Below, piece after piece: positions 22,903 to 31,222 of a stretch of DNA of 64,000 bases; position 1 is the stretch's first letter; every line of letters starts with the position of its first letter. A program made the position numbers and the translations under genes. A model generated the notes under the pieces. It ran no database searches, was not told the DNA's origin, and saw only the letters and a program-made list of their open reading frames with translations. This stretch comes from Pantoea nemavictus (GTDB lineage: Bacteria > Pseudomonadota > Gammaproteobacteria > Enterobacterales > Enterobacteriaceae), in assembly GCF_037479095.1 (NCBI RefSeq), contig NZ_JBBGZW010000001.1, forward strand, positions 806,001 to 870,000, written 5' to 3'.

Positions 22903-22999
22903 CCGTTTTGACCGATTACTGCTCAATCGGATTCGTCGCACTCTTGGTGCGCAATCACAAAACGGTCAAATACACACAAACGGTCATAACCGGTCATGC
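22903..22999. promoter_or_regulatory. Repeated CGGTCA operator-like boxes
   Basis: CGGTCA occurs three times as a direct repeat at 22963-22968, 22981-22986 and 22991-22996. An inverted copy TGACCG lies at 22909-22914. The first two direct copies share a longer unit, CACAAA(A)CGGTCA, spaced 18 bp. The array is upstream of the DeoR gene and fits a multi-site operator for that regulator, an inference from position. Confidence 0.6.
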
Positions 23000-23065: not shown

Positions 23066-23087
23066 TTTTGTGATGAATATCACTTAA
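23066..23087. promoter_or_regulatory. CRP-cAMP binding site
   Basis: TGTGA-N6-TCACT (23069-23084) in an AT-rich context matches the CRP consensus TGTGA-N6-TCACA with one mismatch. It lies about 155 bp before the DeoR start and about 40 bp before a plausible -10, suggesting catabolite control of the sugar operon. Confidence 0.75.
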
Positions 23088-23232: not shown

Positions 23233-24063
23233 ATGTTGCCGATTGAAAGACAGCAGAGAATTATTGACGAATTAAATTTAAATGGTCGGGTCATTGTCGC
23301 TGAATTAGTCACGTTATGTCAGGTTTCACAAGAAACCATTCGTCGTGATTTAACTCAGCTGGAGAAACGTGGGCTGCTGCAACGCAGCCACGGCGGTGCG
23401 GTACCAGCAAAACGACAGGCTGCCAACATTCAGGGGAATACACGTGGTGTTAACGAGTTTGAATTATCTTTCCGCCAGAGAATAAATGAACATGTTGATG
23501 CCAAGATGGCGATTGCCAAACGCGCACTCGATTTCATTAGCCCCGGCGATTGTATATTACTCGATAGCAGCACCACATGCTGGTATTTAGCGCGACAGCT
23601 ACCGGATATTGAATTAACGGTATTAACCAATTCCATCAGAATTGTGCAAACCCTTGCGGCGCGGGGCAGTATCCGCACCATCTGTCTGGGGGGAGAATAT
23701 TCTGACCGTTATGAAGATTTCCACGGCGTAGTCGCCGAGCAACCGCTCAGGGAATTTCAGATTAATAAGATCTTTTTTTCCTGTAGCAGTTTAGGCAATG
23801 ACGGTTATTTACGTGAAGGTAACGAAAACAACGCACATTTAAAACAGCAAATGTTATTAGCAGCAGAAAGAAAACACCTGCTGCTGGATGGAAGTAAATT
23901 CCTGCGGCCCTCATTCGCGCGTATTTGCCACTATCGCGATGTGGACTTTCTCATTACTGACCAATTAAAAGACAAAGAGCTGGAACAAGAATTAGCGTGG
24001 AACGGCGTCAATGTTATTGATTGCTCCCAGCGCAGCCATTCTATGCAGCTAATAAAAAATTAA
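23233..24063 (+). CDS. DeoR-family transcriptional regulator of the sugar operon
   Basis: 276-residue regulator. The N-terminal helix-turn-helix is clear: RQQRIIDELNLNGRVIVAEL, then VSQETIRRDLTQLEKRGLL and RSHGGAV, the classical DeoR signature. The C-terminal DeoRC sensor domain, related to ribose-5-phosphate isomerase folds, has the usual DSSTTCWYLAR and LTNS motifs that bind a sugar phosphate. It is the first gene of the operon, 12 bp before the binding-protein gene. It probably represses the operon until a phosphorylated sugar intermediate appears, as is common in this family. Confidence 0.92.
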   Translation: MLPIERQQRIIDELNLNGRVIVAELVTLCQVSQETIRRDLTQLEKRGLLQRSHGGAVPAKRQAANIQGNTRGVNEFELSFRQRINEHVDAKMAIAKRALDFISPGDCILLDSSTTCWYLARQLPDIELTVLTNSIRIVQTLAARGSIRTICLGGEYSDRYEDFHGVVAEQPLREFQINKIFFSCSSLGNDGYLREGNENNAHLKQQMLLAAERKHLLLDGSKFLRPSFARICHYRDVDFLITDQLKDKELEQELAWNGVNVIDCSQRSHSMQLIKN

Positions 24064-24075
24064 ATCGGAGTCTTT

Positions 24076-25059
24076 ATGAAAAAACATCTTATCGCCTGTT
24101 CTCTCCTCGCACTGTTTGCCGCCACCGGGGCGCACGCTGCTGACAAATTACGTATGGGCATCGTGGTGAAGATTGGCGGTATCCCGTGGTTCAACGCCAT
24201 GGAGGCGGGCATCAAGAGTGAAGCGGCCAAGCGCGGTATTGACGCGTGGATGGTGGGTCCAACCGCAGCCGACCCCGCTTTGCAGGTGCGTGCTATCGAA
24301 GATTTGATTGCGCAGAAAGTCGACATCATTGGCGTGGTGCCGAATGACCCGAAAGTGCTGGAGCCGGTGCTGAAACGCGCGCGTGATGCCGGCATTGAAG
24401 TCATTACCCACGAATCACCAGATCAGAAAGGTGCCAACTGGGACTTTGAACTGGTGGATGCGCCAACGCACGGCATCAACCACATGAAAGCGCTGGCGAA
24501 GTGCATGCATGAAGAGGGCAAATATGCCATGTACGTCGGCAGCCTGACCGTGCCGCTGCATCAGCAGTGGACCGACGCCGCGCTGAACTACCAGAAAGAA
24601 CACTACCCGAAAATGCAGATGGTGACTGACAAGTTCGGCGTGGGCGAATCGCTGGATGACTCGATTCGCACCACCAACGAACTGATGTCTAAGTACCGGG
24701 ATCTGAAAGGCATTATGGCCTTCGGTTCACAAGGCCCAATTGGCGCCGGCCGCGCGGTAATGAACCGTAACAAGATTGACCAGGTTTGCGTAATTGGCGC
24801 CTTCAGCCCGGGCCAGGGCGCATCGCTGGTGCAGCGCGGTGCCATTAAAGGCGGCTATATCTGGAATCCGCAAACCGCTGGCGAAGTGTTTGTGCGCATC
24901 GCCGACATGATGCAGAAGAAAGAGGCTATCACCGACGGAATGACCATCGAGGGTTTGGGCAAAGTGAAGGTTGATGAGGCGACGCACACCATCCTCGGCA
25001 ATAACACCGAAAGCCTGGACAAAGAGAATCTGCCAAAACTGGTGAAAATGGGGCTGTAA
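24076..25059 (+). CDS. Sugar ABC importer, periplasmic binding protein (LsrB/RbsB-type)
   Basis: 327-residue binding protein with a Sec signal peptide cleaved near GAHA-AD (about 22). The mature protein is a type I periplasmic-binding fold, with MGIVVKIGGIPWFNAMEAG at the N-lobe and VGPTAADPALQVRAIEDLI as in the LsrB/RbsB branch. It delivers sugar to the two permeases downstream. Its stop (TAA) shares a base with the ATPase ATG. The ligand cannot be fixed from the sequence; the neighbouring AlsE and kinases suggest a rare hexose. Confidence 0.9.
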   Translation: MKKHLIACSLLALFAATGAHAADKLRMGIVVKIGGIPWFNAMEAGIKSEAAKRGIDAWMVGPTAADPALQVRAIEDLIAQKVDIIGVVPNDPKVLEPVLKRARDAGIEVITHESPDQKGANWDFELVDAPTHGINHMKALAKCMHEEGKYAMYVGSLTVPLHQQWTDAALNYQKEHYPKMQMVTDKFGVGESLDDSIRTTNELMSKYRDLKGIMAFGSQGPIGAGRAVMNRNKIDQVCVIGAFSPGQGASLVQRGAIKGGYIWNPQTAGEVFVRIADMMQKKEAITDGMTIEGLGKVKVDEATHTILGNNTESLDKENLPKLVKMGL

Positions 25060-26567
25060 TGATGAATGAGGTGATCCCACAGACGCTAATTGCGCTCGAC
25101 AACCTGTCGAAAACATTTGGTGGCAATCGCGCACTGAGCGATATCTCGCTGACCCTACTGGCTGGCGAAGTGCACTGTCTCGCTGGCACCAACGGCTGTG
25201 GCAAAAGCACCTTAATCAAAGTCATTTCCGGGGTGCACGCCCCGGATAGCGGCAGCCGTATTACGCTGGGTGAAGGCCCCAGCTTCCCGCGTCTGACCAC
25301 CCGTCAGGCGCGTGACTTCGGCATCCAGGTGATTTACCAGGATCTGTCGCTGTTCCCCAATCTCAGCGTGGCGGAAAACATCGCCTTTGAGCACAACCTG
25401 AATAGCCTGCTCGGCTGGCATCGCCAAGCCAAACTGCGTGCAACGGCACAGCGCATCATTGATGAACTGAAGTTCGAACTCAATCTGGATGAAAAAGTGT
25501 CGTCGCTGTCGATTGCGCAGCGCCAGCAGGTGGCGATTTGTCGTGCGCTGGTCGCCGATGCGCGGCTGGTGATTATGGATGAGCCAACGGCATCATTAAC
25601 GCGTACCGAAGTGAATCAGCTGCTGCGCACCGTACGTTACCTGAAAGACAAAAACATCTGTGTGGTGTTTGTCAGCCATCGTCTGGATGAAGTGCTGGAG
25701 ATCTCCGACCGCGTTACGGTAATCCGCGATGGGCGCAAAATGGGCTGCTGGCCCGCCAAAGAGATGACGCCGCACCATCTCACCGAACTGATGACCGGGC
25801 TGAAGCTCGACTATCAGCTAAAAACGCCGACCCGCAATGACGATCGCTTGATTCTCGAAGTCGAGAAACTGACGCGTGCCGGCCAATATCACGACGTTAA
25901 TTTCAAACTCTATCAGGGCGAAGTGCTCGGCCTGTGCGGCCTGCTCGGCTCCGGCCGCACCGAACTGGCATTGTCACTGTTTGGCATGACCAAACCGGAC
26001 AGCGGCAAGATCTGGCTCGACAGCAAACCGGTGCGCTTTCGTGGCCATGAAGATGCCATTAAAGCCGGGATCGGTTATGTCTCCGAAGATCGCCTCACCC
26101 TCGGTTTGGTGCAGCAGCAATCGGTGGCCGACAACATGGTGCTGCCGATCCTCGACAAGCTGCAGAACCGTTTTCACATTATTGATGAGTACCGCAAGAA
26201 CAAGTTGATCCTGCAGTGGATTCAGCAGCTCGGCGTGCGCGTCGCCGATCCCAATCTGGCGATCTCCACGCTCTCCGGCGGTAATCAGCAGAAAATCGTG
26301 CTGGCGAAGTGGGTGCTGACGCAGCCACGTATTTTGATTCTTGATTCGCCGACGGTCGGCGTAGATGTCGGCGCTAAAGCCAGTATCTATCAGCTGATTC
26401 ATGCGCTGGCGAAGGAGGGTCTGTCGATCATTCTGATTTCCGATGAAGTGCCCGAAGTTTGGTACAACTGCGACCGCATCCTGCACTTCCGTGATGGCAC
26501 CGTTCACGCCGAATACCAACCCGATACCGTTGAGCAACACCAGCTGGCGGAGGTGATTAATGCCTGA
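25059..26567 (+). CDS. Sugar ABC importer ATPase (two nucleotide-binding domains)
   Basis: 502-residue double ATPase of the RbsA/AlsA type. Domain 1 has Walker A GTNGCGKST (about 43-51) and Walker B LVIMDEPTASL, but a degenerate signature (LSIAQRQQV). Domain 2 has GLLGSGRTEL, a clean signature LSGGNQQK, and a Walker B reading LILDSPTVGVD, where the catalytic Glu is replaced by Ser430. Such asymmetry exists in some sugar ATPases. The gene overlaps the next permease by 8 bp. A second ATG at 25062 could be the start. Confidence 0.93.
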   Translation: MMNEVIPQTLIALDNLSKTFGGNRALSDISLTLLAGEVHCLAGTNGCGKSTLIKVISGVHAPDSGSRITLGEGPSFPRLTTRQARDFGIQVIYQDLSLFPNLSVAENIAFEHNLNSLLGWHRQAKLRATAQRIIDELKFELNLDEKVSSLSIAQRQQVAICRALVADARLVIMDEPTASLTRTEVNQLLRTVRYLKDKNICVVFVSHRLDEVLEISDRVTVIRDGRKMGCWPAKEMTPHHLTELMTGLKLDYQLKTPTRNDDRLILEVEKLTRAGQYHDVNFKLYQGEVLGLCGLLGSGRTELALSLFGMTKPDSGKIWLDSKPVRFRGHEDAIKAGIGYVSEDRLTLGLVQQQSVADNMVLPILDKLQNRFHIIDEYRKNKLILQWIQQLGVRVADPNLAISTLSGGNQQKIVLAKWVLTQPRILILDSPTVGVDVGAKASIYQLIHALAKEGLSIILISDEVPEVWYNCDRILHFRDGTVHAEYQPDTVEQHQLAEVINA

Positions 26568-27549
26568 TTTTTCTTGTTTACGCCCGCACTCCAGCCAGGG
26601 CTGGCTCACCTGGGTACTGCTGGCTTTTATCCTGTTCTTCTCCGCCGCCAGCGACCAGTTCCTGACGGTGCAAAACCTGCTCGATCTGGCGGAAAGCTAC
26701 GCCGTCACCGGCATCTTCGCGCTCGGCCTGTTTGTGGTGCTGGTGACCGGTGGCATCGACATCTCCTTCGCGGCGGTGGCGTCGGTGGTGCAATACCTAA
26801 TCGCCTCGCTGTTTGTGCAGTTCCAGTTTGATAACGCCGTGCTCAGCATCTTGCTGGCAGTGGTGTGCGGCACGCTGTTTGGCGTGATTAACGCCCTGCT
26901 GATTACCACGCTGCGCGTGGTGTCGATCATCATCACCATCAGCATGCAGTCGCTGCTGTTTGGTCTGCTGATGTGGGTGACCGGCGGCAAAAGTCTCTAT
27001 TCATTGCCGGATTGGTGGATCACCCTGCGCAGCGTGCTGCCGTTTACGTGGCAAGGCAACAGCTTCCAGCTTGGCTTGCCGCTGGTGACCATGTTGGTGA
27101 TTGCCGGATTGACCGCGCTGCTGCTGAACAAAACCAATCTTGGTCGCCAGCTGTATGCGGTAGGCGGCGATGCCGAATCAGCGCGCCGTATCGGTATTCG
27201 CGTGGGTCTGATTCATCTGTTCGCCTACGGCTGGCTGGGTGCGATGGCGGCGATTGGCGGGCTGGTGCAGGTCTATCGCATGGGTGAAGTGGTGCCGAAT
27301 GCGCTGGTCGGCGGCGAGCTGGATGTGCTGGCGGCCACCGTACTCGGCGGTGCCAGCCTGATGGGCGGCAAAGGCACGGTGAGCGGCACGCTAATGGGCG
27401 TCTTCCTTATCGCCATTCTGAAGAACGGCCTCAACCTGATTGGCGTCTCCAACTACTTCATGAACATCGTGGTGGGCGGCGTGATCATGGTGGCCATCGC
27501 CGTGACTCACTACAAAAAACGTAAAGAAACTGACGTCAGTTTCGTCTGA
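26560..27549 (+). CDS. Sugar ABC importer permease 1
   Basis: 329-residue RbsC/AlsC-type permease with about 8-10 membrane segments. The family motif is seen as VTGGIDISFAAVAS and the ATPase-docking loop near AVGGDAESARRIGIRV. It overlaps the ATPase gene by 8 bp. Two different permeases rather than a homodimer are encoded, as in the Lsr and YphD-like systems. Confidence 0.92.
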   Translation: MPDFSCLRPHSSQGWLTWVLLAFILFFSAASDQFLTVQNLLDLAESYAVTGIFALGLFVVLVTGGIDISFAAVASVVQYLIASLFVQFQFDNAVLSILLAVVCGTLFGVINALLITTLRVVSIIITISMQSLLFGLLMWVTGGKSLYSLPDWWITLRSVLPFTWQGNSFQLGLPLVTMLVIAGLTALLLNKTNLGRQLYAVGGDAESARRIGIRVGLIHLFAYGWLGAMAAIGGLVQVYRMGEVVPNALVGGELDVLAATVLGGASLMGGKGTVSGTLMGVFLIAILKNGLNLIGVSNYFMNIVVGGVIMVAIAVTHYKKRKETDVSFV

Positions 27550-27566
27550 CCACAGGAGCAAAAAAT

Positions 27567-28616
27567 ATGAAATCACTCTCTGCTCTGCGTCCGGACGGCA
27601 CCAATATCGGCCTGATGCTGCTGATTGCGCTGGCGCTGGCGATCTTCACCGTCATGCTGCCCGGCCGCTTTCTCACCGACTCCACCTTTATGAGCATGGC
27701 GTTTCAGCTGCCCGAACTCGGTTTGCTGACGCTGGCGATGTTTATCGCCATTCTCAGCGGCGGCCTCAATCTGGCGATTATTGCCACCGCCAACCTGACG
27801 GCGCTGTTTATCGCCTGGACGCTGATGAGCGCCCTGCCCGCCGATGCTGGCACCGGCATGCAGCTGCTGTGGCTACTGATGGCAATTATTGGCGCAATGC
27901 TGATCGCCACGGTGATTGGCGTGATTACCGGCGTGATGGTCACGCGCATCGGCGCGCACCCGATTCTGGTGACGCTGGCCACCATGATGACGCTCAACGG
28001 TATCGGCATCTGGCTGACCAAAGGCGCGGCGGTGAGCGGCATGCCGTCGGTGGTGCAGGCGCTTGGTTCCGATACGCTGCTCGGCGTCCCGCTGCCGCTG
28101 TGGGTATTTTTGATTGCCGCCGCGCTGCTGGCGCTGTTCCTCGGCAAAACCCGCGCCGGTAAATGCATCTACATGGGCGGCAGCAACATCAACGCCACCT
28201 GGTTCAGCGGTATTAATACCCATCGTATGGTGATTCTGGTGTACGTCATCTCCAGCCTGCTGTGCGTGTTAGCCGGATTGATCATGATGGCGCGCTTTAA
28301 TTCGGCGCGTATGGGCTACGGCGACGCTTACCTGCTGTTAACGGTGCTGGCGATCATCCTCGGCGGTACCGATCCCAACGGCGGTTTTGGGCGCGTCACC
28401 GGCGTGGTGCTGGCGCTGATCTCGCTGCAAGTGCTCTCCACCGGTTTCAACCTGATGAACATCAGCCAGCACGTCAGCCTGGCGATGTGGGGCGCGGTGC
28501 TGATTGTGGTGCTGGCCTTCAAACAATTTAAAACCCGCTTTAACGAACATCGTGCCGTCAAGCTCAGCAAACTGGCTGCGGCGCTTAACCCTTTGACCGA
28601 AAAAAAGGAAGTATGA
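27567..28616 (+). CDS. Sugar ABC importer permease 2
   Basis: 349-residue second permease of the same family, with segments such as ILSGGLNLAIIATANLTALF and YMGGSNINATWFSGI in the docking loop. It begins 17 bp after permease 1 behind a ribosome site (ACAGGAGCAAAAA) and overlaps the epimerase start by 4 bp (ATGA). Confidence 0.92.
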   Translation: MKSLSALRPDGTNIGLMLLIALALAIFTVMLPGRFLTDSTFMSMAFQLPELGLLTLAMFIAILSGGLNLAIIATANLTALFIAWTLMSALPADAGTGMQLLWLLMAIIGAMLIATVIGVITGVMVTRIGAHPILVTLATMMTLNGIGIWLTKGAAVSGMPSVVQALGSDTLLGVPLPLWVFLIAAALLALFLGKTRAGKCIYMGGSNINATWFSGINTHRMVILVYVISSLLCVLAGLIMMARFNSARMGYGDAYLLLTVLAIILGGTDPNGGFGRVTGVVLALISLQVLSTGFNLMNISQHVSLAMWGAVLIVVLAFKQFKTRFNEHRAVKLSKLAAALNPLTEKKEV

Positions 28617-29308
28617 TGCGTATTCAAGTCTCCCCGTCGTTGATGTGTATGAATCTGATGGAGATCAAGCACCAGCTCGCCGTGCTGGACTCCCGCGCCG
28701 ACTTCCTTCACATCGATATTATGGATGGTCACTACGTGAAAAATATCACGCTGTCGCCGTTCTTCATTGAGCAGATTCGCCCGTTTACCAAGGTGGCGCT
28801 GGATGTCCATTTGATGGTCGAGCAACCCACCGATTTCATTGAAGTGATTGCGAAAGCCGGTGCGGATTACATCTGCCCGCACGCCGAAACCATCAACCGC
28901 GACGCGTTCCGTGTGATCAATATGATCCGCAGCTTCGGCAAAAAAGTCGGCGTAGTGCTGAACCCGGCCACGCCGGTCTCGTTTATCCATCACTACATTC
29001 ATTTGGTGGATAAGATCACCGTGATGACAGTCGATCCGGGCTATGCCGGACAGCCGTTTATTCCGGAAATGGTGCAGAAGGTGCAAGAGCTGAAAACGCT
29101 AAAGCAGACCAACGGTTATCACTATCTGATTGAGATTGACGGCTCCTGCAATACTCGTACTTACAACACGCTGGTTGGCGCTGGCGCAGAAGTGCTGATT
29201 GTCGGCACCTCCGGTCTGTTCAATATTCACGACGATCTGGAAACCGCCTGGAACATGATGCGCGAAAGCATTGATGAGGCTCAGGGATTGGCGCAGGTAT
29301 CCGCATGA
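28613..29308 (+). CDS. alsE: AlsE-like hexulose-6-phosphate 3-epimerase (D-allulose-6-phosphate type)
   Basis: Ribulose-phosphate-3-epimerase fold, 231 residues, closest in feel to E. coli AlsE, which converts D-allulose 6-phosphate to fructose 6-phosphate. Metal ligands are visible in HIDIMDGH (His, Asp), DVHLMV and IEIDGSC, and the phosphate loop in VGTSGLF. SPSLMCMNL and KITVMTVDPG are almost the same as in AlsE. It starts at ATG 28613 (overlapping the permease stop) or at the second ATG at 28616. Its place between transporter and kinases is what points to a rare hexulose pathway. Confidence 0.85.
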   Translation: MMRIQVSPSLMCMNLMEIKHQLAVLDSRADFLHIDIMDGHYVKNITLSPFFIEQIRPFTKVALDVHLMVEQPTDFIEVIAKAGADYICPHAETINRDAFRVINMIRSFGKKVGVVLNPATPVSFIHHYIHLVDKITVMTVDPGYAGQPFIPEMVQKVQELKTLKQTNGYHYLIEIDGSCNTRTYNTLVGAGAEVLIVGTSGLFNIHDDLETAWNMMRESIDEAQGLAQVSA

Positions 29309-30198
29309 AAAAATGCTGGCTCGGTATCGACATTGGCGGCACCGGCACACGTCTGCAGCTGATGGAAGCAGGCCGTATCTGGTCGAGCTTCCGTAAAGTG
29401 CCGACGGCCAGCTGGGCGCAGCAGCCCGATGCCTTAAGCGCATTGGGGCAGTTGATCAGTGAAACGCTGGAGCAGCAGCCGGTCAGTGGCGTGATGCTTG
29501 GCTTGCCCGGCATTCTCAGCCGCGACCGCCAGCAGGTGATTTCGCTGCCGTTTATCCAGGCGCTGGATCAGCAACCGGTTGCCGCGCTGCTCACCGAGCG
29601 GCTTGGCGTACCGGTGGCGATGGACAAAGATGTTAACCACCTGATGCTGTGGGATTTACTGCAGCTGGAGCAGCTGCCGGACAGTGCCGTGGGCTTGTAT
29701 CCCGGCACCGGCATGGGCAACAGCTTGTGGCTTAACGGCCAGTTTTATCACGGTCAGCACGGCGGTGCCGGTGAACTCGGCCACGTGCCGATTGCCGGTA
29801 ACCATCTGCCCTGCCCGTGCGGCAATCACGGCTGTGCGGAAACGGTGACCTCCGGCCACTGGCTGAGCCGCTGGGCAGCCAGCAACGTGCCAGAAACCGG
29901 CATGTCAGCGCTGTTTAGCCAACATCGTGAACATGCGGAGTTGCAGGCTTTTGTACAGCGGCTGGCGCAGCTGATTGCCACCGAAATGAACATCCTTGAT
30001 CCGGAATACCTGATTCTCGGCGGCGGCGTGCTGGCCATGGCCGACTTCCCGCTGGCGCAGCTGCGCAGCCAGATTCAGCAGCATTTACGTCCACCCGCTA
30101 CGCGTGACGGCCTGAAGATCGTGTTTAGCCAATCCACCGATCACACCGGGTGCCGCGGTGCCTGTTTAGCCGCCGAACGTCTGTTCAGGAGTGCATGA
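29305..30198 (+). CDS. alsK: AlsK-like ROK-family sugar kinase
   Basis: 297-residue ROK kinase. ATP site IDIGGTGTRL is at the N-terminus, the catalytic region has MDKDVNHLMLWDLL, and the zinc motif CPCGNHGCAE is complete. AlsK in E. coli phosphorylates D-allose at O6. The gene overlaps the epimerase by 4 bp and the PfkB kinase by 4 bp. Sequence alone does not tell whether the true substrate is allose, allulose or another hexose. The name is by similarity and by the alsE neighbour. Confidence 0.75.
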   Translation: MKKCWLGIDIGGTGTRLQLMEAGRIWSSFRKVPTASWAQQPDALSALGQLISETLEQQPVSGVMLGLPGILSRDRQQVISLPFIQALDQQPVAALLTERLGVPVAMDKDVNHLMLWDLLQLEQLPDSAVGLYPGTGMGNSLWLNGQFYHGQHGGAGELGHVPIAGNHLPCPCGNHGCAETVTSGHWLSRWAASNVPETGMSALFSQHREHAELQAFVQRLAQLIATEMNILDPEYLILGGGVLAMADFPLAQLRSQIQQHLRPPATRDGLKIVFSQSTDHTGCRGACLAAERLFRSA

Positions 30199-31160
30199 TG
30201 AAAGGAAAAGTGTGTGTGTTTGGCTCGTTCAACCTCGACGTGGTGGCGGTGATGAACCGTTTCCCGATGCCCGGCGAATCGCTCACCGCCCATACCAGCA
30301 TGATGGGACCGGGCGGCAAAGGCGCCAACCAGGCGACGGCGGCGCTGCGTGCCGGGGCGCGCGTGCACTACATCGGCAAAATAGGTAATGATGACTTCGG
30401 CATGTTTGCGCGCCGTCATCTGGAAAAGACCGGTTTCGATGCCATTACCTTGTTTACCTGCAAAGAAAAACCGACTGGCAATGCGCTGATTTACGTGGCG
30501 GGCGACGATGCCGAGAACATGATTTCGGTCTATCCTGGCGCCAATACCACCGTGACCGCTGCGGAAGTGGCGCGCTGCCAACCCACGGTGGCTGCCGCCG
30601 ATATTCTGCTGGTTCAGCTGGAGAATAACCTCAGCGCTATTCAGCGCATGATCGACAATGCGCGCGCCGGCGGCACCTTTGTGATTATGAATCCGGCGCC
30701 GTGGCAGAAAGTCACGGATGCGCTGCTGGCGAAGGTGGATTTGCTGACGCCTAACAGCACCGAAGCGATGCAGCTGACTGGCGTGAAGGTAACCGACTTC
30801 ACCAGCGCGCAGCAGGCCGCAGAAGTGCTGCACCGCAAAGGCGCACGTCAGGTCATCATTACGCTGGGGATTGCGGGTGCCTTGCTCTCTGTTGCCGGAC
30901 AACAGGCATTACGTATTCCGCTGTTTCCGGCTCAGCCGCTGGATAGCACCGGCGCGGGCGATGCCTTCAATGGCGCATTGGCGGCGCGTCTCGCTTCCGG
31001 CGATGAGCTGCCGCAGGCGGCGCTGTTTGCCGCGGCTTATGCTTCGCTGTGTGTGGAGCGTTCTGGTGCGGCACACTCGATGCCCCCTTACGCAGAAGCG
31101 CTGGCCAGGTTGCAGGCGTATCCGGATTGCATCCTGGAAGCGTTGGGTGAGTGTGTTTAA
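30195..31160 (+). CDS. PfkB/ribokinase-family sugar kinase
   Basis: About 321 residues (ATGATG start at 30195; the second ATG at 30198 is equally possible). The N-terminal PfkB signature MGPGGKGANQATAALRAGA and the C-terminal catalytic DSTGAGDAFNGALA are intact, giving an active RbsK-like fold. It is the last gene of the operon, overlapping alsK. Two kinases of different folds in one operon suggest two phosphorylated intermediates or two substrates. Stronger similarity is to ribokinase than to fructokinase, but specificity is not assignable. Confidence 0.85.
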   Translation: MMKGKVCVFGSFNLDVVAVMNRFPMPGESLTAHTSMMGPGGKGANQATAALRAGARVHYIGKIGNDDFGMFARRHLEKTGFDAITLFTCKEKPTGNALIYVAGDDAENMISVYPGANTTVTAAEVARCQPTVAAADILLVQLENNLSAIQRMIDNARAGGTFVIMNPAPWQKVTDALLAKVDLLTPNSTEAMQLTGVKVTDFTSAQQAAEVLHRKGARQVIITLGIAGALLSVAGQQALRIPLFPAQPLDSTGAGDAFNGALAARLASGDELPQAALFAAAYASLCVERSGAAHSMPPYAEALARLQAYPDCILEALGECV

Positions 31161-31182
31161 GGCAAGATGGCCACACATTCCT

Positions 31183-31222
31183 GTAGCGGCGCAATTTATT
31201 GCGCGATAAATCGCGCCGCTAC
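31183..31222. repeat. Family B palindromic repeat (GTAGCGGCGC type)
   Basis: GTAGCGGCGC and GCGCCGCTAC flank TTATTGCGCGATAAAT-like inner arms, a 40-bp inverted repeat 22 bp after the last sugar-operon gene. It may serve as a 3' end stabiliser or terminator. A related pair is at 46761-46837. Confidence 0.8.

Follow-up and report, generated by a model that had tools for sequence, protein, structure and literature searches.

A 64,000-nucleotide stretch of the Pantoea nemavictus genome (contig NZ_JBBGZW010000001.1, positions 806,001 to 870,000; hereafter the window) contains eight same-strand genes for a DeoR-family regulator, an ABC importer, the epimerase AlsE and two kinases of different folds. 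These genes form one operon, which we propose, with a probability of roughly three in four, serves the uptake and catabolism of D-allulose (D-psicose). The genome that carries it is 5.19 Mb in two contigs.

An eight-gene operon among three classes of AlsE loci

The operon and the putative regulatory sites before it comprise the following features (window coordinates; open reading frames are ORFs, and class B is defined below):

22963-22996, + strand: putative DeoR operator, three CGGTCA half-sites as direct repeats from 22963, 22981 and 22991, 242-270 bp before the deoR start
23069-23084, + strand: putative CRP site, TGTGATGAATATCACT, with 1 mismatch to TGTGA-N6-TCACA
23233-24063, + strand: DeoR-family regulator (Pfam, NCBIfam, tree)
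24076-25059, + strand: sugar-binding protein (SBP), Peripla_BP_4 (families; rhizobial relatives adjoin ketose 3-epimerases)
25059-26567, + strand: ABC importer ATPase, two ABC domains (Pfam, NCBIfam)
26560-27549, + strand: ABC importer permease 1 (Pfam, NCBIfam)
27567-28616, + strand: ABC importer permease 2 (Pfam, NCBIfam)
28613-29308, + strand: AlsE, D-allulose-6-phosphate 3-epimerase (NCBIfam; nearest solved structure 3ct7)
29305-30198, + strand: AlsK-family kinase of the ROK fold (NCBIfam; nearest solved structure 3htv; tree)
30195-31160, + strand: kinase of the PfkB/RbsK fold, proposed D-allulose 6-kinase (families; clade with class B kinases)

All eight ORFs read open at these coordinates. 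Five of the seven junctions are overlaps of 1-8 bases (SBP/ATPase 1, ATPase/permease 1 8, permease 2/AlsE 4, AlsE/AlsK 4, and AlsK/RbsK 4 or 1 depending on the choice of ATG in ATGATG), and two are short gaps, of 12 bp between deoR and the SBP gene and 17 bp between the permease genes. Families were assigned with Pfam domains, which run DeoR (PF08220 and PF00455), Peripla_BP_4, ABC_tran, BPD_transp_2 twice, Ribul_P_3_epim, ROK and PfkB, and with NCBIfam models at their curated cut-offs. AlsE scored 381 bits, exceeding the D-allulose-6-phosphate 3-epimerase cut-off of 271 by 110; the ROK kinase scored 376 bits against an allose kinase cut-off of 253; and the RbsK-like kinase, at 288.7 bits, fell slightly under the ribokinase cut-off of 299.65. 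The family scan of the eight ORFs found no isomerase gene, FGGY kinase or aldolase within the operon. The original prediction, made from the window's letters, had described one operon of overlapping genes with AlsE and AlsK homologues, a PfkB/RbsK-like kinase and no isomerase; ORFs and family scores bear this out, two gapped junctions aside. A palindromic repeat-like sequence lies directly 3' of the operon (31181-31222, by eye).

To place the operon among its relatives, named bacterial genomes were scanned with an alignment of five AlsE proteins, and the best 80 loci from 250 relatives were kept; these are the nearest to the window AlsE (the closest named match, at 100%, is in Pantoea sp. RIT-PI-b) rather than a census, and some are truncated by contig ends. 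Three layouts were distinguished: class A, with the window's gene order (62 of 80 loci); class B, DeoR-AlsE-RbsK with a FucP-type permease (8 of 80); and class C, AlsE-AlsK-RpiB with an AlsC-type permease (10 of 80). The search for the same eight-gene order that the original prediction had proposed thus found it in 62 loci, a recurrence that argues against chance.

Class A spans Pantoea, Erwinia, Pectobacterium, Dickeya, Serratia, Rahnella and other genera. Each of the eight genes was matched in 62/62 class A loci, save permease 1 (61/62), and 52 of the 62 loci hold exactly one copy of each (matches above 150 bits). Departures include a single 683-aa ORF covering the place of both permeases (L075), genes split into two ORFs (rbsK in L072, alsK in L073, permease 2 in L093) and an extra match to abcA or alsE at another place in the locus (L090, L094). 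Four class A loci (L086-L089, from Enterobacterales CwR94, P. piersonii, UBA2655 and Dryocola) carry, roughly 12.1 kb from the locus start and 3' of the rbsK-like gene, a second SBP gene whose product is 61-66% identical to the window's. In a separate sample of 394 genomes from the order, the window's own genome included, AlsE passed the cut-off in 15; around these AlsE genes all eight genes scored in three genomes (G097, G276, G228), seven of eight in G238, where the SBP ORF was masked by ORF choice, and two in G324, with the same caveat.

Class B comprises five Gilliamella loci and one each from Entomohabitans, Raoultella planticola and Cedecea neteri. None of its eight operons contains AlsK, and one locus has a distant ROK gene (29%) 8 kb off. 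Class C (six Pleomorphomonas and four others) has the AlsC-type permease, AlsE, AlsK and RpiB in 10/10 loci, an AlsB-type SBP in 8 and an RpiR homologue in 7; a ribokinase-like gene, 36-40% identical to the window's, stands in the flanks of 6/10, five times on the other strand. RpiB adjoins the operon in 10/10 class C loci and in 0/70 class A and B loci.

The E. coli allose operon (alsRBACEK with rpiB/alsI, in passages of PMC5893763) resembles the window operon in its AlsE, AlsK-family kinase and ABC importer. It differs in having one permease, an adjacent isomerase gene and no RbsK-like kinase (same passages), and in its AlsB-type SBP, the window SBP being far under the AlsB cut-off.

Two kinases and the isomerase question

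The class B layout links this family of loci to psicose growth. Passages of PMC6020474 describe a K. pneumoniae psicose utilization locus, KP1_RS12820-RS12850, in which deletion of the permease gene KP1_RS12820 impaired psicose growth and a plasmid-borne copy of the gene restored it in part; a table there gives, in this order, permease, ribokinase, allulose-6-phosphate 3-epimerase, alkaline phosphatase/deoR and deoxyribose-phosphate aldolase. Klebsiella genomes have also been scored for eight D-psicose utilization genes, after Blin (an excerpt of PMC5820359), and a passage of PMC6020474 identifies Blin's locus with its own; we assume that these eight genes have the Klebsiella layout. In K. pneumoniae record CP125156.1 we found a DeoR-AlsE-ribokinase-FucP-type ORF arrangement (class B layout; AlsE 355 bits on the NCBIfam model) flanked by deoC, a second DeoR gene and, by eye, an FGGY-like ORF. 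Because its gene content matches the list in PMC6020474, we take it as the same locus. The record is chromosome-sized, at 5.37 Mb, yet labelled a plasmid. A search for a class B source in E. coli found no place covering at least 80% of the query in 5426 genomes.

The K. pneumoniae locus and the window operon have in common a DeoR regulator, AlsE, an RbsK-like kinase and the absence of an isomerase. They differ in the importer, a FucP-type permease in the K. pneumoniae locus and an ABC system in the window, and in the ROK/AlsK kinase, which the K. pneumoniae locus lacks; deoC, the FGGY-like kinase ORF and a second DeoR gene lie alongside the latter. Since the importer differs, the window operon is better described as a variant than as a member of the Klebsiella locus.

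Phylogenies support the kinship of the two layouts. The RbsK-like kinases of 24 class A loci, the window and six class B loci form one clade (support 100/99), apart from seven other kinases of the window's genome and five class C neighbours; the K. pneumoniae kinase was aligned and stands outside this tree's sample. In a tree of 18 class A loci, the window and seven class B loci, AlsE of classes A and B fall into neighbouring clades (A 89/93, B 92/83, A+B 85/79). Class B kinases nest with the Serratia/Rahnella part of class A (97/87), which suggests that B derived from A; the AlsE tree does not repeat this, and because the two trees disagree we claim no direction of change between the layouts. 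Several outgroup branches in the RbsK and ROK trees are very long.

These relationships bear on which kinase would act on allulose. The original prediction treated the PfkB/RbsK-like protein as the added kinase, leaving AlsK to phosphorylate allulose; on this reading the RbsK-like kinase would act on a pentose or a by-product. Both kinases do occur in 62/62 class A loci, and the AlsK of class A departs from the canonical enzyme at two motifs (GLPG where the latter mostly has GLPA, MDKDVN where it mostly has RDVN), so that its substrate may differ. However, all eight class B operons have RbsK without AlsK, no AlsK passes the cut-off in 7/9 class B genomes or records (eight genomes and the K. 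pneumoniae record, each searched whole), and a K. pneumoniae locus of this layout supports psicose growth (passages of PMC6020474). Across the whole of CP125156.1 no AlsK passes the cut-off, the best match scoring 128 bits; if this record is typical, psicose growth in K. pneumoniae is independent of AlsK. The window's genome, moreover, encodes two other kinases that score above the ribokinase cut-off, at 366 and 360 bits. We therefore consider AlsK quite unlikely to be the operon's principal allulose kinase: the RbsK-like enzyme appears to be the main-line kinase, common to the class B psicose loci, and AlsK the added one.

AlsK over the cut-off does occur in two class B genomes, R. planticola (C8:10205) and C. 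neteri (C24:20703), with a full-length RpiB about 6 kb away on the same contig (C8:4276 and C24:14476). The AlsK and RpiB genes (R. planticola G441:C8:4276-11110, C. neteri G442:C24:14476-21593) and the class B locus apparently belong to two distinct operons of each genome, one for allose and one for allulose.

What, then, does AlsK do in class A? It is present in all 62 loci (split in L073). In the ROK tree the class A proteins form one clade (100/99) nested in that of AlsK (99/98), and seven further ROK proteins from the window's genome fall outside the latter. The class A proteins retain the CxCG-GCxE, HG-GE and catalytic aspartate motifs. GLPG occurs in 25/25 aligned class A rows, the fourth place in class C being Ala in 11/13 and Ser and Val once each, and Lys precedes the catalytic Asp (MDKDVN) in at least 24/25 class A rows against Arg (RDVN) in 12/13 class C rows. 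Between the window and L080, one of four pairs compared, the ratio of nonsynonymous to synonymous substitution (dN/dS) was 0.13 for AlsK and 0.11 for RbsK at a dS of 1.2, so that both kinases look constrained, many dS values among the pairs being saturated or high. Because AlsK accompanies the ABC importer in 62/62 loci and the FucP-type permease in 0/8 operons, its substrate is perhaps a sugar, most obviously D-allose, that enters by the ABC importer alone.

An alternative reading is a chiefly D-allose operon, in which AlsK would make allose 6-phosphate, an unlinked RpiB would isomerise it and AlsE would follow, the RbsK-like kinase being secondary. Consistent with this reading, AlsK passes its NCBIfam cut-off and shares a clade with canonical AlsK, and alsI is dispensable in E. 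coli K-12 (according to passages of PMC5893763). Full-length RpiB in the window's genome and in 29/43 class A genomes (below) also favours it. The window's genome has two RpiB-family matches (C1:4122503 and C1:4073199). Its full-length RpiB adjoins a transketolase gene, with a dihydroxyacetone-kinase-family gene a few kb off and a protein weakly like L-ribulose-5-phosphate 3-epimerase (25 bits) nearby, a neighbourhood that suggests tetrulose metabolism; the other match, 212 aa long, ends in a DUF3666 domain.

For a wider census of RpiB, 44 of the 62 class A loci were submitted and 43 genomes searched, with six class B genomes added. Full-length RpiB was found in 29/43 class A genomes, a short match alone in 11/43 (62-72 bits, model positions 1-106 at most; this type may itself be an isomerase) and no match in 3/43 (P. 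anthophila L078, P. stewartii L080 and, with a contig of 5.49 Mb, S. marcescens 106R L111), where, completeness not being given, single absences may be assembly gaps. One of six class B genomes also lacked a match. With three class A genomes free of RpiB and eleven holding a short divergent match, a linked isomerase seems unnecessary, as the original prediction had supposed: the RpiB-free operons with AlsE and an RbsK-like kinase separate from those with AlsE, AlsK and RpiB.

The prediction had also asked after rpiB elsewhere and an isomerase under the same regulator. To the former correspond the two RpiB-family matches just described; the latter we reject, as a scan of the window's genome placed the paired operator (described below) at no isomerase gene, neither RpiB-family match included. 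This result, the transketolase neighbour of the full-length RpiB, the three RpiB-free genomes, the contrast between 10/10 class C and 0/62 class A operons with adjoining RpiB and an SBP score of 46.7 against an AlsB cut-off of 335 all speak against a chiefly D-allose operon, which we judge unlikely. In addition, the 14 class A genomes that lack a full-length RpiB still keep AlsK, a finding that weighs against a D-allose role for it or requires another isomerase.

Importer relatives and upstream repeats

The window SBP passes none of the NCBIfam cut-offs shown (RhaS 134.8 against 342, LsrB 110.9 against 384, RbsB 46.7 against 337), and among solved structures it is nearest to 3d02 and 9i1m. A ribose or autoinducer-2 (AI-2) system could be suspected from RhaS and LsrB being its best family matches and from the ribokinase-like second kinase. 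The original prediction had named a binding protein specific for either ligand as evidence against itself; scores so far under the cut-offs do not indicate one and set the importer apart from LsrACDB and RbsABC. The operon contains no other lsr-type gene, and two kinases encoded elsewhere in the genome exceed the ribokinase cut-off, so that such a system is hardly credible.

Relatives of the SBP point instead to ketoses. Matches occur in 357 plasmid records; among the 30 listed, we read 11 loci of a rhizobial type (H16, H17, H20, H23-H30), whose SBPs are 55-62% identical to the window's. Ten of the 11 have a divergent LacI gene, a two-permease ABC importer and a ketose 3-epimerase homologue, and a further epimerase-like gene is present in five of those ten, distantly related in one case. 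In L191 the first epimerase matches solved D-tagatose 3-epimerases and the second scores 451.7 bits against a D-psicose 3-epimerase cut-off of 300. In the eleventh locus, L197, the LacI gene points in the same direction; the locus also encodes an FGGY kinase, an aldolase and a distantly related epimerase homologue (34%). In A. tumefaciens the LacI-type PsiR faces an operon starting with psiA and responds to D-psicose (passages of PMC7445875), and from their layout we infer that the rhizobial-type loci are the psi operon. The window operon resembles it in its homologous SBP and two-permease ABC importer, but lacks a LacI regulator and has a kinase with AlsE where the psi-like loci have free-ketose 3-epimerases.

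A further relative, on K. pneumoniae plasmid p3-KP21315 (L188, 6816-14895), combines a DeoR regulator (49%) and the same importer type (SBP 65%) with L-ribulose-5-phosphate 3-epimerase and an FGGY kinase, and probably serves another ketose. SBPs of the same identity (65%) occur on Enterobacter and Citrobacter plasmids. Because its relatives adjoin ketose 3-epimerases, FGGY kinases and L-ribulose-5-phosphate 3-epimerase, we regard the importer as one of a ketose family, and allulose as the likely ligand of the window's member. The presence of related importers in other ketose-type operons also leaves room for a different substrate, such as L-ribulose, D-tagatose or D-sorbose, with AlsE acting on the corresponding phosphate. 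This is very unlikely given the margin by which AlsE exceeds the D-allulose-6-phosphate 3-epimerase cut-off, the inclusion of the K. pneumoniae psicose-type locus in its neighbour clade and the lack of an FGGY kinase or aldolase in the operon.

Upstream of deoR, the paired repeat CGGKCA-N4-CGGKCA occurs in 52/62 class A and 4/8 class B loci and in 1/3500 first-order shuffled upstream sequences; because the pattern was chosen after inspecting these upstream sequences and the loci are related, the 52 occurrences are not independent events. Where class A loci carry the pair, across genera from Pantoea to Tolumonas, its distance to the start codon is 238-262 bp. CRP-like sites with no more than one mismatch accompany 41/62 class A and 5/8 class B upstreams, against means of 0.9 and 0.15 after shuffling. 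Across the window's whole genome the paired operator has four matches against three for a backward control, and only the window's match precedes a sugar operon. By eye, one of the remaining three falls within an ABC-ATPase gene, one immediately before an HlyD-like gene and one at the end of a gene that has a convergent neighbour. With one mismatch allowed, the window itself holds 2 matches against 1.88 expected.

The regulator of the E. coli allose operon is of the RpiR type, so that the DeoR gene does depart from E. coli, as the original prediction stated. It is no novelty, being common to the class B psicose group. In a tree of 18 class A loci, the window and seven class B loci, one branch (92/99) parts A from B including K. 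pneumoniae. Class B is not one clade there with the root as drawn.

Substrate of the operon and its meaning

Taken together, D-allulose is the best-supported substrate because the RbsK clade and the CGGTCA repeats are common to classes A and B and because of the importer's rhizobial relatives. The original prediction's choice of D-allulose fares well, the window grouping among the 80 loci with the RpiB-free operons that pair AlsE with an RbsK-like kinase. The possible readings overlap, and their probabilities need not sum to one.

Several observations weigh against this assignment. The paired operator is missing from 10/62 class A and 4/8 class B upstreams, and the K. pneumoniae upstream has only one exact CGGKCA half-site. 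DeoR kinship is no proof of ligand, since the L188 regulator, from a plasmid operon, joins Tolumonas (88/90) on the class A side of the tree. The AlsE branch uniting A and B reaches only 85/79, and the nesting of B within A in the RbsK tree is not repeated for AlsE. The importer family also serves other ketose operons such as L188, and the permease of class B locus L055 scores above the cut-off for L-fucose:H+ symporters. AlsK in 62/62 class A loci is unexplained by allulose alone, and full-length RpiB is present in 29/43 class A genomes and the window's own. The open-access literature searched yielded no growth, binding or enzyme data for class A operons.

In the scheme we propose, the DeoR-type regulator would bind the CGGTCA direct repeats some 250 bp upstream of deoR, and CRP would be a likely activator. 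The SBP and two-permease ABC importer would bring in D-allulose, the RbsK-like kinase would phosphorylate it at C6, and AlsE would epimerise allulose 6-phosphate to fructose 6-phosphate for glycolysis, a route that would require no isomerase. AlsK would provide a second entry, most likely for D-allose arriving by the same importer, with an unlinked isomerase where present. Computation establishes which genes there are and in what order, how kinase, epimerase and regulator are related to those of the psicose-type loci, and that the upstream repeats are conserved; the substrate, the individual reactions, binding at the operator and the part played by AlsK are deduced from these. A full two-entrance operon is a tentative extension, somewhat short of an even bet: one importer for D-allulose and D-allose, the RbsK-like kinase sending allulose to AlsE, and the divergent ROK kinase feeding allose through an unlinked isomerase or acting as a second allulose kinase where RpiB is absent.

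The window's genome encodes a second AlsE over the cut-off (G000:C1:2203517-2204191; L043 9015-9692, minus strand) beside an ascorbate/GAT-type phosphotransferase system (PTS) IIC gene, an arrangement also found on a K. pneumoniae plasmid (L189). It may represent a second, PTS-based allulose route.

The original prediction's description of an undescribed system was too strong, a psicose locus with DeoR, AlsE and a ribokinase-type kinase having been published for K. pneumoniae (passages of PMC6020474). The core pathway is thus known from Klebsiella and the allose pathway from E. coli; the eight-gene form with an ABC importer and two kinases, of which we found no description in the open-access literature searched, looks like a variant of the Klebsiella locus. 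Passages of PMC13042381, PMC10101011, PMC9343666 and PMC10576766 contributed nothing further on it.

Which bacteria use D-allulose, and how, is thinly covered in the papers found. D-allulose is a commercial sweetener. Our analysis names many enterobacterial genera as carriers of this operon and suggests a genomic rule, by which AlsE with this RbsK-like kinase and no RpiB would indicate allulose, and AlsE with AlsK and RpiB allose. It also offers a candidate allulose-responsive DeoR regulator with a putative operator and, in the AlsK-family ROK kinase, a candidate for work on specificity.

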